Assembly: GCA_002840285.1 (NCBI GenBank)
Contig: PHAE01000010.1
Coordinates: forward strand, 1 to 62,866
Direction: 5' to 3'
DNA from: Firmicutes bacterium HGW-Firmicutes-11
GTDB taxonomy: Bacteria > Bacillota > Clostridia > Peptostreptococcales > Anaerovoracaceae
Length of the DNA: 62,866 nucleotides
The first letter of the stretch is position 1. The number at the start of each line of letters is the position of its first letter. Made by a program: the position numbers and the translations under genes. Below the pieces are notes generated by a model that did not search any database, was not told where the DNA came from, and worked only from the letters and a program-made list of their open reading frames with translations. Positions 8,512 to 13,211 of the stretch are shown in pieces.

Positions 8512-9201
8512 TCAGCTAAATATATTCCATAAAGAAATCATAGTTTCATCGTGTAGTTCGGTACGCTCAAATTGCACCACCGGGAACAGCTCTCCTCGCT
8601 TGACAGAATCTAGAAAGCTTTGTAGCAACACTTCTGGGTTGAGATTCGCTGAACTTCCTGCGCTGACGATGACATCGAGGGACAAGCCGGACGCATCGTC
8701 TGACACGACGGTTGCATTGTGGATCAACGGCTTCATATCGACATCGACCAATTCTTTCGATCCCTTTTTACGCTTCTTGCCGATCAAAACCGGCTGATCG
8801 ATGTACTCAAGAAATTGTTGGCCACCGGGATGGTCTGCGCCGGGCAAAGTGATTCGGTAGGAAGCCCATCGAACCAGGGAGGCCATAGTTTTTCCCGGCT
8901 CCGGGATCTCCTTGCAGCGTGTCGAATGGATCCCGTGGGGGAGCGACCGGTTCAGCGCTTCTTGTATAGCGGAGGGTTCACCTGCTTCTGCGCAGACGAT
9001 TTCCAGATATTCGCTGCTGCTTGTGAATCCCAATGACAGCGGGTGAGCAAAGGAAATTTTAGGATGGGGGCTAAAACCGGAAGAATAGGCAAGGCGAATG
9101 TTTCCACGCTTGAATGCCCTTTGAAATAACCGCATCATATCCAGATGGGACGTATACCGCACCAAACCCTGTTTGGTGAATTTGATCAAATATCGGTTCA
9201 T
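8512..9201 (-). CDS. TIGR03936-family radical SAM-associated protein (DUF2344)
   Basis: This 229-residue protein begins MNRYLIKFTKQGLVRYTSHLDMMR and carries the family's GFSPHPKISFAHPLSLG motif. It has no CxxxCxxC of its own. Members are almost always encoded beside, or fused to, a TIGR03960 radical-SAM protein, and the biochemical role of the pair is not established to my knowledge. The start is the ATG ending at 9201, whose ATGA overlaps the stop of the preceding radical-SAM gene; a longer in-frame ATG start lies within that gene and is unlikely. In many Clostridia an rng gene and rplU follow; here they do not. Confidence 0.9.
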   Translation of the reverse strand: MNRYLIKFTKQGLVRYTSHLDMMRLFQRAFKRGNIRLAYSSGFSPHPKISFAHPLSLGFTSSSEYLEIVCAEAGEPSAIQEALNRSLPHGIHSTRCKEIPEPGKTMASLVRWASYRITLPGADHPGGQQFLEYIDQPVLIGKKRKKGSKELVDVDMKPLIHNATVVSDDASGLSLDVIVSAGSSANLNPEVLLQSFLDSVKRGELFPVVQFERTELHDETMISLWNIFS

Positions 9202-11051
9202 TGGCTGCCCTCCATCGGACATGTCGTAAAGGTGTTGATTCCGCAACCGGTGCAACCCAAACGACAATCCTGCGTCTGGACCTCGCCTTTTGCAGATTCC
9301 CATTCGGCCTGCAAGTAGTCCGTTGTGACGCCGCTGTCGATCACATTCCATGGCAAAACTGTGCCGGTGGAAACTGTACCGGAGGTATAAAAGGTCGGAT
9401 CGATGCCGGTTGCGTCAAAAGCCTGCAACCAGAGGTCATACCGAAAGTGCTCTCTCCAGCCGTCAAACTTGGCTCCCAGTGACCACGCTTGTTCGATCAC
9501 GTCTGAGAGTCTTCTGTCACCTCTGGCCAGCACCGCCTCGATCCGGCTCGCATCTGAACCATGGTACTGGTACTGGACACCGCGCAGTTTTTTTAGCCGG
9601 TCTTTCAAGTACATATGCTTCTCTGTGAAGACATGGGGTTCGTCTTGCGCGACCCATTGAAACGGTGTGTGCGCCTTCGGAACAAAATTTGAGATGCTGA
9701 CAGAGAGTTGAAAACGATTGCTTTTACCTGAACCCCCGCCTTGCCGGGCTAACTGCATGATTTCAGCTGCTATATTGACGATACCATCTAAATCTTCCTT
9801 CGTTTCCGTCGGTAGCCCGATCATAAAATACAGCTTGACCGTATACCAGCCCAAAGAAATGGCTTGCTTGACACCGGTGAAAATATCATCTTCGGTGATC
9901 GACTTGTTGATCACGTCCCTTAGTCTCTGGGTACCGGCTTCCGGTGCAAACGTCAGGCCAGTCTTCTTATATTTCTGTATTTCCTGAAGAACCTGAAAAG
10001 AAAATGAATCCAAGCGAAGAGACGGAAGAGACAATGAGACGTTGTTCTCTCTTCCCCATGCCACCAGTTCCAACGCCAAAGGCTCAAAGCAAGAATAATC
10101 ACTGGTCGAAAGAGACAGCAAGGAAAGCTCATCGTAGCCGCTGGACTTCAATTGCGCATCTGCCAGTGCTAGAATGGACTCTTTGGAACGTTCTCTGACG
10201 GGACGGTAGATCATGCCAGCCTGACAAAAGCGGCAGCCTCTGGTACAACCGCGAAACAACTCGATCACCGACCGATCGTGAACGACTTCGATCAATGGAA
10301 CGATCGGCGCCTCGGGGAAGTCGAAACTGTTGAGATCGGAAAGAACGCTCTTTGTGACTCTGGCTGGCGCCGAATCGTTAAGAACCTTGATTTCTGAAAC
10401 GGTGCACTTCTCGTCGTACATCGGTTGATAGAAGCCGGGAACATAAACACCCGGCAAAGACGAAATGGTTGACAGAAATACATTTCTGTCAGCTTTGGAC
10501 CGTTTCCACTGTTGATGGAGCTCACATACCTGACGAATGGATTCTTCTCCGTCTCCGATCAGGAAGAAATCAAAGAAATCCGCAACCGGTTCCGGATTGA
10601 ATGCGCAAGGTCCTCCGCCGAGGATAAAGGGATCGGTTTCTCCCCGATCACAACTCCGCAAAGGAATGCGGGAAAGGTCCAGCATATTTAGGACATTGGT
10701 GTAGGAAAGCTCGTATTGCAGGGTGAAACCAAGAAGATCCAGTTCATTGGCAGGTGTTTTGGTTTCCAATGTAAACAGCGGCAGCCCAGCTGACCTTAGT
10801 TCTCTTTCCATATCCAGCGCCGGGGCAAAGATTCGCTCACAAAACACAGAATCCATGTCGTTCAAGGATTTATACAATATCTGAAGTCCGAGATAGGACA
10901 TTCCAAGTTCATAGGTGTCTGGAAAAGCAAAGCCGAATCGGGTCATGCCCTCTTCGGTCACTTTCGATACCGTATTCAATTCACCGCCAATATAGCGTGC
11001 GGGTTTTTCAACTTTTGGAAGAAGCAGTTCTAATTGCTTGTTTAGTGTCAT
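9198..11051 (-). CDS. TIGR03960-family B12-binding-type radical SAM protein
   Basis: This 617-residue protein has an N-terminal cobalamin-binding-like Rossmann region (about 20-190, FAFPDTYELGMSYLG, LPLFTLETKTPANELD), though I see no DxHxxG base-off motif. A central radical-SAM core carries the cluster motif C-x3-C-x2-C in RGCTRGCRFCQAG, followed by a long C-terminal region ending in a cysteine-rich CRLGCTGCGIN tail. It may modify tRNA or protein, but no substrate is known. It sits 9 bases after the MetH-activation/HD gene and overlaps the TIGR03936 gene by four bases, so the three form one operon. Confidence 0.9.
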   Translation of the reverse strand: MTLNKQLELLLPKVEKPARYIGGELNTVSKVTEEGMTRFGFAFPDTYELGMSYLGLQILYKSLNDMDSVFCERIFAPALDMERELRSAGLPLFTLETKTPANELDLLGFTLQYELSYTNVLNMLDLSRIPLRSCDRGETDPFILGGGPCAFNPEPVADFFDFFLIGDGEESIRQVCELHQQWKRSKADRNVFLSTISSLPGVYVPGFYQPMYDEKCTVSEIKVLNDSAPARVTKSVLSDLNSFDFPEAPIVPLIEVVHDRSVIELFRGCTRGCRFCQAGMIYRPVRERSKESILALADAQLKSSGYDELSLLSLSTSDYSCFEPLALELVAWGRENNVSLSLPSLRLDSFSFQVLQEIQKYKKTGLTFAPEAGTQRLRDVINKSITEDDIFTGVKQAISLGWYTVKLYFMIGLPTETKEDLDGIVNIAAEIMQLARQGGGSGKSNRFQLSVSISNFVPKAHTPFQWVAQDEPHVFTEKHMYLKDRLKKLRGVQYQYHGSDASRIEAVLARGDRRLSDVIEQAWSLGAKFDGWREHFRYDLWLQAFDATGIDPTFYTSGTVSTGTVLPWNVIDSGVTTDYLQAEWESAKGEVQTQDCRLGCTGCGINTFTTCPMEGSQ

Positions 11052-11060
11052 AGTTTCTCC

Positions 11061-12281
11061 TTATACTTCATCGACCACCTTCTGCCGTAACAGATCGTCA
11101 AGGTCGTTGCCGATCAATTCTTCGATCCTGCGGATCAGGATGCGGTTTTCATCCAATCGTTGCAGGATCCTGACAGTAGCGACGGGATCATCGCTGTATT
11201 TATCGAGTACCGATTGCATACGGGACTCAAGTCCAACGTACTTGTCTTCTTTGATCATCCGATCTGCGAGACACAGGATGTCCTGCTCGTCGATCCTGTC
11301 ATGGTAGGGATCGGATATGTAGAACATATGCCGCTTGATCAGCTTTCCGGTCTTGTGATACCCATGACGTATTGCGATCTTCGCTCCTTTGACACCGTGG
11401 TTCTCTTCCGTTCTTGCGATGTCATGGAGCAAGGATGCGCCTTCCAGCAGATCGAGGTCGATAGGCAACCCCTTCTCTTTCAGCAGACGTCCAATGCGTC
11501 CGGCAGTATCTGCAACCGCAAGACAATGAGCGATCACATGAGGTGGCGTGCCGTAGGAGTGAAGAAGCTCAAGACAAGCTTCTTTGCTGGGTATGCGGTT
11601 TTTTCCTCCACAAAACTGACAACCTTCATCACTGCCGATGCAATCTTTGCAAATCTCGGACGGTAATTGCTCCTTGTCTCTTACAGCAAACAGAAATCCG
11701 CCGCAGCTTTTCTCCGGAGATGGCGTTCCGTCAGGCGCAACTGTTATCCCGATCGATGAGGGATCCAAGATCTGTGCAAGATCTTTGAGTTTCTCCGGAT
11801 GCATGCCATAAAAACCGGGACCAAAGGAATAGGTCACATACGGGTGTTCAAAGCGGCTTTTACTGTCGCTCATCACAAAAGCGCGAATCCGTTCTCTGCA
11901 GGATTCAAGAAACCCCTCGCCCCATACATCGGCATAGTACTGTTCTGATAGGTTTTTGTCCTGGATGTTACAAGGACCAACTGTCACGAAATATATGTAA
12001 ACCTGAAGTATATTGTCATCTGGGATCTGCTCAAAAGCGGTGCATTGAAAGCTGACATCCTGAATCGAAAGCATGTGGTTCTGATAACACGTACTATCTA
12101 CCGATGTCAATACTGCGTGAGGATCAATGTTCTTCCGGCAATTTGCAAGAACCCGCAGACCTTCTTGGATGTACAGACTTTGATTTTCTGTATCATCCAG
12201 AAAGCCACAGGCATCCATGAAGTATTTTCCTGCAGTTCCAATCAGCTCTTCGTAATCGAACACAAGACAGATGTCATTCAT
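11061..12281 (-). CDS. fusion of MetH-reactivation-like domain, four-cysteine motif and HD hydrolase
   Basis: The 406-residue product has three parts. Residues about 1-205 resemble the AdoMet-binding reactivation domain of B12-dependent methionine synthase: YSFGPGFYG corresponds to the PGY motif, and IGITVAPDGTPSPEKSCGG to the conserved T..(5)..P.KS..G strand. Residues 211-224 carry C-x2-C-x6-C-x2-C, probably a metal site. Residues about 245-390 form an HD phosphohydrolase with H252, H286-D287 and D340 as metal ligands. The start is the ATG ending at 12281, six bases after GGAGG; the ATG at 12302 lacks a ribosome site. It heads the operon with the two radical-SAM genes. The substrate is unknown. 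Confidence 0.8.
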   Translation of the reverse strand: MNDICLVFDYEELIGTAGKYFMDACGFLDDTENQSLYIQEGLRVLANCRKNIDPHAVLTSVDSTCYQNHMLSIQDVSFQCTAFEQIPDDNILQVYIYFVTVGPCNIQDKNLSEQYYADVWGEGFLESCRERIRAFVMSDSKSRFEHPYVTYSFGPGFYGMHPEKLKDLAQILDPSSIGITVAPDGTPSPEKSCGGFLFAVRDKEQLPSEICKDCIGSDEGCQFCGGKNRIPSKEACLELLHSYGTPPHVIAHCLAVADTAGRIGRLLKEKGLPIDLDLLEGASLLHDIARTEENHGVKGAKIAIRHGYHKTGKLIKRHMFYISDPYHDRIDEQDILCLADRMIKEDKYVGLESRMQSVLDKYSDDPVATVRILQRLDENRILIRRIEELIGNDLDDLLRQKVVDEV

Positions 12282-12449: not shown

Positions 12450-13211
12450 ATGACCTATGCACAGATGTTGGATGACATCATTCGCAAGAGCGAGCTATCC
12501 CTTCGTCAAATCGCCAGGCGGTGCAATGAACTGAACTTGAAAATAACGCCTTCTTATATATCCCAACTAAAAAATGGCAAACTTCCTCCCCCGTCGGAAG
12601 AGGTTTCCATGACGCTGGCCAAAGCCTGCGGATCCAAAAAGCAAGCGTATCTGGTGTTTCAGGGTTATATGGAAAAGGCCCCTTCTCTCGTGAGAGAATA
12701 CATGCTTGCATCATCGTCACTGAATAAAGCGATGCTGGAATCTCTATGCAAAGCAACCAACAAACCATTTACGAAAGAAATGGAAGATTACGTCAAAGAG
12801 CTGGATATCCTTTCAGCGATGGAATTGTCTTCCCGCTATGTGGGAACCGGAGAGATCCCCAAAAGCGGGGATCTGGTGCGGGAAATTTCACTGGCAAGCG
12901 GCGCGCCGACCGTGGCGGACACCAAGGGTGATATGGTGCATTTTTTCCTTGGAGATTCGTCCATGTCACCATTCATTCCAAGCCATGCTTACCTTTATAT
13001 CATGCCGACAAAGCCGGATCTACTGAAAGACCGGGATATCATTGCCTTCTATCCGGATAACAGAAGAGTACCCACGCTGCGTTATATTCATTTTGTGAAA
13101 GACAAATTGCTTCTGATTCCAGAGGAGAAGTCCTATGAGACTTTCCTGTATGAATCCATCGCGGAGATCAATTATATTGGCAAAGTGGTTTCCTTTAAGA
13201 TGGATCTGTAG
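12450..13211 (+). CDS. XRE-family regulator with S24 (LexA/signal-peptidase-like) domain
   Basis: This 253-residue protein has an N-terminal helix-turn-helix (residues about 6-62, LSLRQIARRCNELNLKITPSYISQLKNG) and a C-terminal S24-type beta domain (about 160-250). The serine motif GDSSMSPFIP is present (Ser171), but where LexA-like proteases have the catalytic Lys (TVKR pattern) this one reads TLRY, with Arg211. Self-cleavage is therefore doubtful. Known relatives regulate prophages, stress or sporulation genes; no phage genes are near. An AGGAGGTG site precedes the ATG. It is divergent from the HD/radical-SAM operon and overlaps obg by 17 bases at the 3' end. Confidence 0.85.
   Translation: MTYAQMLDDIIRKSELSLRQIARRCNELNLKITPSYISQLKNGKLPPPSEEVSMTLAKACGSKKQAYLVFQGYMEKAPSLVREYMLASSSLNKAMLESLCKATNKPFTKEMEDYVKELDILSAMELSSRYVGTGEIPKSGDLVREISLASGAPTVADTKGDMVHFFLGDSSMSPFIPSHAYLYIMPTKPDLLKDRDIIAFYPDNRRVPTLRYIHFVKDKLLLIPEEKSYETFLYESIAEINYIGKVVSFKMDL

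Follow-up and report, generated by a model that had tools for sequence, protein, structure and literature searches.

The window, a stretch of 62,866 nucleotides from contig PHAE01000010.1 of Firmicutes bacterium HGW-Firmicutes-11, carries a gene, P0001, in which an activation-type domain is joined to an HD hydrolase. The features of the locus are as follows.

11061..12281, minus strand: fusion gene P0001, 406 aa, an open reading frame with ATG at 12281 and a GGAGG ribosome site before the ATG
11607..12281, minus strand: N-half of P0001, residues 1-225, with the MetH activation-domain fold, of the RACo-associated branch (structure and profile)
11802..11828, minus strand: SFGPGFYGM motif, residues 152-160, the counterpart of canonical R-F-S-P-G-Y-G-D, with Ser for Arg and Phe for Tyr
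11610..11651, minus strand: C211-x2-C214-x6-C221-x2-C224, the end of the N-half domain, found in all five fusions and in free-standing relatives
11082..11594, minus strand: HD half of P0001, residues 230-400 (Pfam, ligands, structure)
9198..11051, minus strand: TIGR03960 radical-SAM protein, 617 aa (NCBIfam 825 bits, cut-off 462)
8512..9201, minus strand: TIGR03936/DUF2344 partner (NCBIfam 181 bits, cut-off 72)
12450..13211, plus strand: divergent HTH/S24-peptidase-like regulator upstream of P0001, at the same position in several related genomes

The stop of P0001 lies 9 bases from the start of TIGR03960, and the stop of TIGR03960 overlaps the start of TIGR03936 as ATGA, so that the three genes form a tight operon with P0001 as the first gene. 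A sequence-only reading had placed P0001 at the head of an operon with a radical-SAM gene and its partner, which was borne out by the two NCBIfam scores. The SFGPGFYG (152-159), TPSPEKSCGG and C-x2-C-x6-C-x2-C motifs that it had named were all found in the 406-aa open reading frame, to which it had given no strand and which is encoded on the minus strand. A promoter-like hexamer pair is located 5' of P0001; such matches are hardly commoner in the region (7) than in shuffled sequence (mean 6.4). The genes obg, rplU and rpmA lie near the TIGR03960/TIGR03936 pair in the window. The divergent regulator adjoins the HD gene in several relatives.

Based on the Pfam search, PF01966 is the sole family above cut-off in P0001, scoring 35.6 bits on the HD half against a cut-off of 22. 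The complete HD metal site claimed earlier is indeed present: its six ligands H252, H286, D287, H295, H318 and D340 (numbered by adding 225 to the position in HD alignment A4) were invariant in 37 related HD sequences, as were V256, E332 and R354. When the other fusions were added (41 rows), H318 and D340 remained conserved at 90% or more, the fall being due to one fusion fragment that ends before them. A review takes the set H..HD..H..H..D to be characteristic of YqeK-type sites with two metals (PMC8177086). The HD half is a YqeK-type HD phosphohydrolase with six ligands, and the ligand set suggests that its site probably binds two metals. The structural neighbors of the HD half were exopolyphosphatase HD domains (8jgx, Z 13.8, 4.1 Å over 129 residues) and YqeK (2o08, Z 11.7, 3.4 Å over 143 residues). 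In the plain Foldseek list for P0001, 1j6r alone passed E 0.001 and the YqeK rows stood at E 0.04 and above; the evidence for the HD assignment therefore comes from Pfam, from the ligand residues and from the second structure alignment. YqeK (COG1713, Ap4A hydrolase HD family) has the HD fold and the six-ligand set in common with the HD half. The spacing from the HD pair to the next His, however, is 32 in YqeK (numbering of PMC8177086), whereas H295 comes 8 after HD in P0001, and the partner of YqeK is NadD, whereas that of the HD half is TIGR03960. An Ap4A activity of the HD half is putative. NCBIfam matches in P0001 were confined to the HD half, where NF045665, the DVU_1551 family NTP transferase, scored 125 bits (E 3e-36) without reaching its cut-off of 315; the C-terminal HD of that transferase resembles the HD half, but P0001 has no transferase domain. 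Across the class as a whole, members of the HD family are scarce. At E 1e-8, P0001 had matches in 22 of 391 genomes, and the window genome was alone in matching both halves; of the 15 HD matches outside its family, 10 sit in frames of 369-397 aa.

The N-half had been likened to a MetH reactivation domain. Profile searches detected the HD part of the earlier proposal and not this one: no Pfam or NCBIfam family was above cut-off on the N-half, and PF02965 gave no Pfam match to P0001 up to E 1. On the window genome's own N-half paralog PF02965 reached 20.5 bits, under the cut-off of 25. A sub-threshold Pfam PSI_integrin match spans the N-half cysteines. Structure prediction, on the other hand, gave the MetH fold. 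The AlphaFold2 model of P0001 (mean pLDDT 90, pTM 0.87) aligned with the MetH activation domain of PDB 1j6r at Z 17.6 (rmsd 2.7, 186 aligned), and the N-half modelled alone aligned at Z 18.3, with MetH entries in the top 14 rows and the next row at Z 5.3. The input for the N-half-alone fold, alignment A2, includes one PF02965-type row (L003), and A3 and A6 hold no such row; alignment A1, which set free-standing N-halves over the HD region, was left out, and A2 and A3 were made for the folds. A profile of 16 N-half family members, built without canonical activation domains, matched 10 canonical domains from related genomes in hhalign with a probability of 99 (E 9e-18), and the five fusions by themselves matched with a probability of 95 (E 2e-8). 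The likeness is beyond chance, and the N-half is a separate branch of the MetH activation-domain fold.

The branch keeps some of the canonical residues and has lost others. At the position of Glu1097 of E. coli MetH, 15 of 16 family members have E or D, and Pro1137-Gly1138 is kept in 16/16. The Arg of RxxPGY (Arg1134), read by its spacing from the Tyr because the aligner placed a gap there, is found in 9 of 10 canonical domains and in none of the 16 family members. Tyr1139 is present in 10/10 canonical domains and 9/11 free-standing relatives and in 0/5 fusions, where the residues are F, F, F, C and F, with Phe in P0001. The AdoMet/B12-type signature read from the sequence was half right, given the missing Arg and the Phe at the Tyr position. 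In E. coli MetH, Arg1134 and Tyr1139 have a role in handling AdoMet and at the face of the cobalt. Since the Arg is absent throughout the family and the Tyr is lost in all fusions, AdoMet-driven chemistry of the MetH type is doubtful in the N-half, and we favor a role independent of AdoMet, in the manner of RACo systems. The family invariants F83, D118, W120, G154-P155-G156, G159, G195, C211, C214 and C221 are kept in 5/5 fusions, so that the GPG..G, DxW and Cys motifs of the RACo-associated branch are all present. The N-half thus resembles the MetH activation domain (PF02965/TM0269) in fold, in the acidic residue at the Glu1097 position and in P-G, and small canonical forms have a Cys-rich tail as well; it differs in the missing Arg, in Phe for Tyr, in a score under Pfam detection and in its partner, which is methionine synthase for the canonical domain and RACo or HD for this branch. 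The four cysteines were also considered as a separate zinc finger between the domains, a candidate that was dropped because the motif closes the N-half domain and recurs in the free-standing relatives.

The free-standing relatives of the N-half often lie among genes of corrinoid metabolism. A phmmer search with a small number of query proteins covered four corrinoid components, and among 51 free-standing N-half loci there was RACo, the ATP-driven corrinoid activase, in 31, a corrinoid protein in 17, a URO-D type methyltransferase in 16 and a dimethylamine-type methyltransferase in 9; at least one of the four was found in 36 loci and none in 15. These 51 include duplicates (L110 = L057, L122 = L060) and query-source loci (L024, L055, L056, L058), without which 30 of 45 were positive, near-copies (L120/L123/L124, L117/L144, L130/L131) being kept. 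By the same phmmer search, the four components were found at 0/29 HD loci, two of which (L025, L026) are fusion loci, and at 0/4 named fusion loci, which carry no corrinoid methyltransferase gene within up to 8 kb. RACo beside the N-half often comes without its ferredoxin and linker segments: at 16 loci the match is confined to residues 185-617 of full RACo. At five loci the N-half and the ASKHA part of RACo share a single frame:

L063:1160-3127, L113:7965-10055, L133:3845-5908, L167:5624-7900 and L168:5712 on: N-half joined to the RACo ASKHA part

Pfam found no ferredoxin domain in L063, L113, L133, L167 and the short L119; L167 and L168 align by BLAST with nearly the whole length of full RACo, so that a diverged ferredoxin part may exist in these two. 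N-half relatives often adjoin RACo/RACE corrinoid activases (PF14574, PF17651) or share a frame with their ASKHA domain, a domain that P0001 itself does not have. Clusters of corrinoid methyltransferases with RACE proteins have been described, and the portion of that paper available makes no mention of an activation-domain protein alongside them (PMC10418091). A RACo with an activation-fold domain next to its ferredoxin part, or in its stead, would represent a new architecture among corrinoid activases.

How widely is the fusion itself distributed? A few uncultured bacteria carry it. Among the matches listed, it was found at full length in 5 of the 197 genomes of the window genome's family, in three genera (the window genome G000, G022, G166, G117 and G007, the G007 copy being interrupted by unread assembly bases). 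The other family genomes with a listed HD match have HD without any N-half. The same fusion appeared in the named records JAQUJQ010000063, DCUA01000161, DGEG01000060 and JAKJCD010000002, but not in the rest of the 44 loci found by a scan with two patterns from the alignment of the five fusions; the scan is not exhaustive because both patterns lie in the N-half. Relatives found in this way include Sinanaerobacter and Anaerovorax, which, together with the tree labels, make Anaerovoracaceae the probable family; a contig scan with P0001 as sole query found no relative. The fused N-halves form one clade (SH-aLRT 99, quick tree of 52 rows). The fusion of an activation-type domain with an HD hydrolase is real, and the N-half joined the HD gene and its operon once, as seen in three genera. 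In L169 and L170 the genes flanking the fusion are arranged as in non-fusion relatives. Both halves of the fusion had pN/pS below 1 (N-half 0.31-0.59, HD 0.19-0.35), a ratio given instead of dN/dS because synonymous sites were saturated in most pairs. Searches of the PMC literature on activation domains and corrinoid activases gave, by title, no paper on such a fusion.

These data bear on two alternative views of the N-half. In the first, the HD half alone serves the TIGR03960 operon, and the N-half is a chance fusion that acts in trans on corrinoid proteins with RACo. Corrinoid proteins are found in 5/5 fusion genomes and RACo, elsewhere in the genome, in 4/5, and the HD domain does stand without the N-half in the other family genomes. 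However, the window genome has a free-standing relative (G000:C67:57823-58503) clustered with RACo and corrinoid protein genes, and G022, G117 and G166 have one as well among the matches listed, so that in four of the five fusion genomes the fused N-half would be redundant in trans; the single clade of fused N-halves with a Tyr loss in common also speaks against chance. We consider this view to be rather unlikely. In the second, the N-half no longer acts on corrinoid proteins and has become a domain for ligand sensing or dimerisation that controls the HD hydrolase. The loss of the PGY Tyr and the canonical Arg would fit this, as does the faster evolution of the N-half (pN 0.24-0.44 vs 0.14-0.27 for HD), but the retention of the family invariants from F83 to C221 in all five fusions does not, and we hold it to be unlikely.

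The linkage of the HD half to TIGR03960 is much broader than the fusion. Among the 197 family genomes, TIGR03960 is present in 164, and an HD match is listed in 114, of which 104 have TIGR03960 and 10 do not. Thermotoga maritima, a control genome, has a TIGR03960 match too. All places of HD and TIGR03960 are those among the matches listed, and in these the HD gene precedes TIGR03960 on the same strand in 95/95 genomes with both on one contig; of the remaining genomes with both, five have the two genes on separate contigs and four have no listed TIGR03960 place. Neither outcome that the sequence-only reading had named as its refutation occurred: the N-half has the MetH activation fold, and a radical-SAM link is conserved. 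This link belongs to the HD half, and the N-half relatives link to RACo and methyltransferases instead. The gap between HD and TIGR03960 is below 150 bases in 71/95, fusions included, and 0.7-1.8 kb in 24/95. In the loci inspected, wide gaps hold M23/M50-peptidase (SpoIVFA/B-like) genes (L025); in the window both peptidase genes are absent between HD and TIGR03960. In seven inspected loci (L035, L037, L042, L043, L047, L050, L051) HD forms the N-terminal region of the TIGR03960 protein itself, and 25 TIGR03960 frames of at least 750 aa were found among the matches listed. HD has a role of its own, as it is kept in the 10 genomes without TIGR03960, six of which show no sign of cobalamin. Detected without TIGR03960, the HD gene is retained at L158, L159, L161 and L163 (G084, G072, G099, G089), and at L159 it still adjoins the regulator, a SpoIVFA-like gene and comEA.

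A third alternative starts from the HD half. In this view HD proofreads nucleotide cofactors in the way that YqeK does for NadD, and it belongs with a MobA-like nucleotidyl transferase and a histidine phosphatase, its position beside TIGR03960 and the N-half being secondary. The NF045665 match on the HD half and the YqeK-NadD precedent, described in PMC9426524, are in line with it, as are several gene neighborhoods: a MobA-like/HD/His_Phos_1 fusion protein in L044 (Pfam) and L039 (by likeness), a His_Phos_1-HD protein adjoining XdhC in L048, an HD protein adjoining XdhC and His_Phos_1 genes in L052, and adjacent HD, MobA-like and XdhC genes in L165 (BLAST). Most TIGR03960-linked HD genes, however, are frames of about 175-210 aa, too short for a transferase part, and the 95/95 linkage among the matches listed places HD with TIGR03960. 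We regard the proofreading view as distinctly unlikely. As observations in their own right, the three-domain proteins of MobA-like NTP transferase, HD and histidine phosphatase lie at L044:387-2171 and L039:1690-3456; the former directly precedes TIGR03960, and the remainder of this fusion fills the HD-TIGR03960 gap in L044.

Does TIGR03960 handle cobalamin? A sign of cobalamin, taken as a PF02607 corrinoid domain or a cobalamin riboswitch, was present in 155 of the 164 genomes with TIGR03960 vs 22 of the 33 without it (Fisher p 3e-5, a value that ignores kinship and completeness). Among genomes without PF02607, a riboswitch was found in 17/26 with TIGR03960 vs 2/13 without (p 0.006, which likewise ignores kinship and completeness). 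From this co-occurrence we infer that TIGR03960 may handle cobalamin. Nine TIGR03960 genomes show neither sign, including G091 (95% complete) and G149 (96%), of one genus, in both of which a riboswitch was absent even in a more sensitive run, and 17 genomes without TIGR03960 carry both signs. Nine of the 114 HD genomes also show neither sign, which suggests that the HD reaction as such can do without cobalamin. Among solved structures the radical-SAM protein 9ccb is closest to the TIGR03960 core, and the second-best NCBIfam model is TIGR04014 (B12_SAM_MJ_0865, C-methyltransferase) at 55.6 bits, with a cut-off of 360. Sequence comparison of the N-terminal domain of TIGR03960 with B12-binding families and structures gave no match. 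TIGR03960 and TIGR03936 are an uncharacterised gene pair, widespread in the window genome's family; the PMC literature held no mention of TIGR03960 and, by title, nothing relevant on DUF2344.

The explanation we prefer, tentatively and as something short of an even chance, is that P0001 is an accessory protein of TIGR03960/TIGR03936, in which a YqeK-like hydrolase is combined with a corrinoid-protein docking and activation domain that resets the radical-SAM cobalamin. The HD gene would have captured this domain in three genera, and the HD protein would bring the N-half to TIGR03960. There the N-half may cap or reset a cobalamin bound to the radical-SAM enzyme, probably by assisting its AdoMet-free reduction by RACo or a different donor. 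The HD half would hydrolyse a by-product of this TIGR03960 reaction, either a phosphoanhydride or a nucleotide; YqeK-NadD proofreading offers a precedent for an HD hydrolase that cleans up after the enzyme to which it is fused (PMC9426524). We counted in favor of this accessory role the fold and profile match, the 95/95 HD linkage, the HD-TIGR03960 fusions, the RACo neighborhood, the corrinoid proteins of all five fusion genomes with RACo in four of them, the cobalamin co-occurrence, 9ccb, TIGR04014, the single origin of the fusion and pN/pS below 1. Counted against it were the null result for a B12 domain in TIGR03960, the nine sign-free genomes, the lost PGY Tyr, the HD genes kept without TIGR03960 and the absence of corrinoid methyltransferases at the fusion loci. 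A cofactor repair or modification pathway, as the sequence-only reading had suggested, is reasonable but unproven.

The fusion gives a testable hint that the TIGR03960 radical-SAM enzyme handles a B12-type cofactor. Through two fusion links, of the activation domain to HD and of HD to TIGR03960, together with the cobalamin co-occurrence, the 'B12-binding' label that NCBIfam attaches to TIGR03960 becomes a testable claim, and a hydrolase of the nucleotide type is indicated as the partner of TIGR03960. The full proposal, that TIGR03960 is a cobalamin radical-SAM enzyme whose corrinoid is reset by an AdoMet-independent activation domain fused with a by-product-clearing HD hydrolase, we would call improbable as it stands. 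We are not aware of another system that maintains a corrinoid enzyme of the radical-SAM kind.

Two minor observations may be added. TIGR03960 ends in a D-C-R-x2-C-x2-C-G-x6-C motif (residues 595-611) that was invariant in 14 sequences and is possibly a second metal or Fe-S site. A further type of activation domain, with PGQ for PGY, was found at L087:1420-2094, L097:1384-2145 and L098:1009-1710, with one copy in the window genome.
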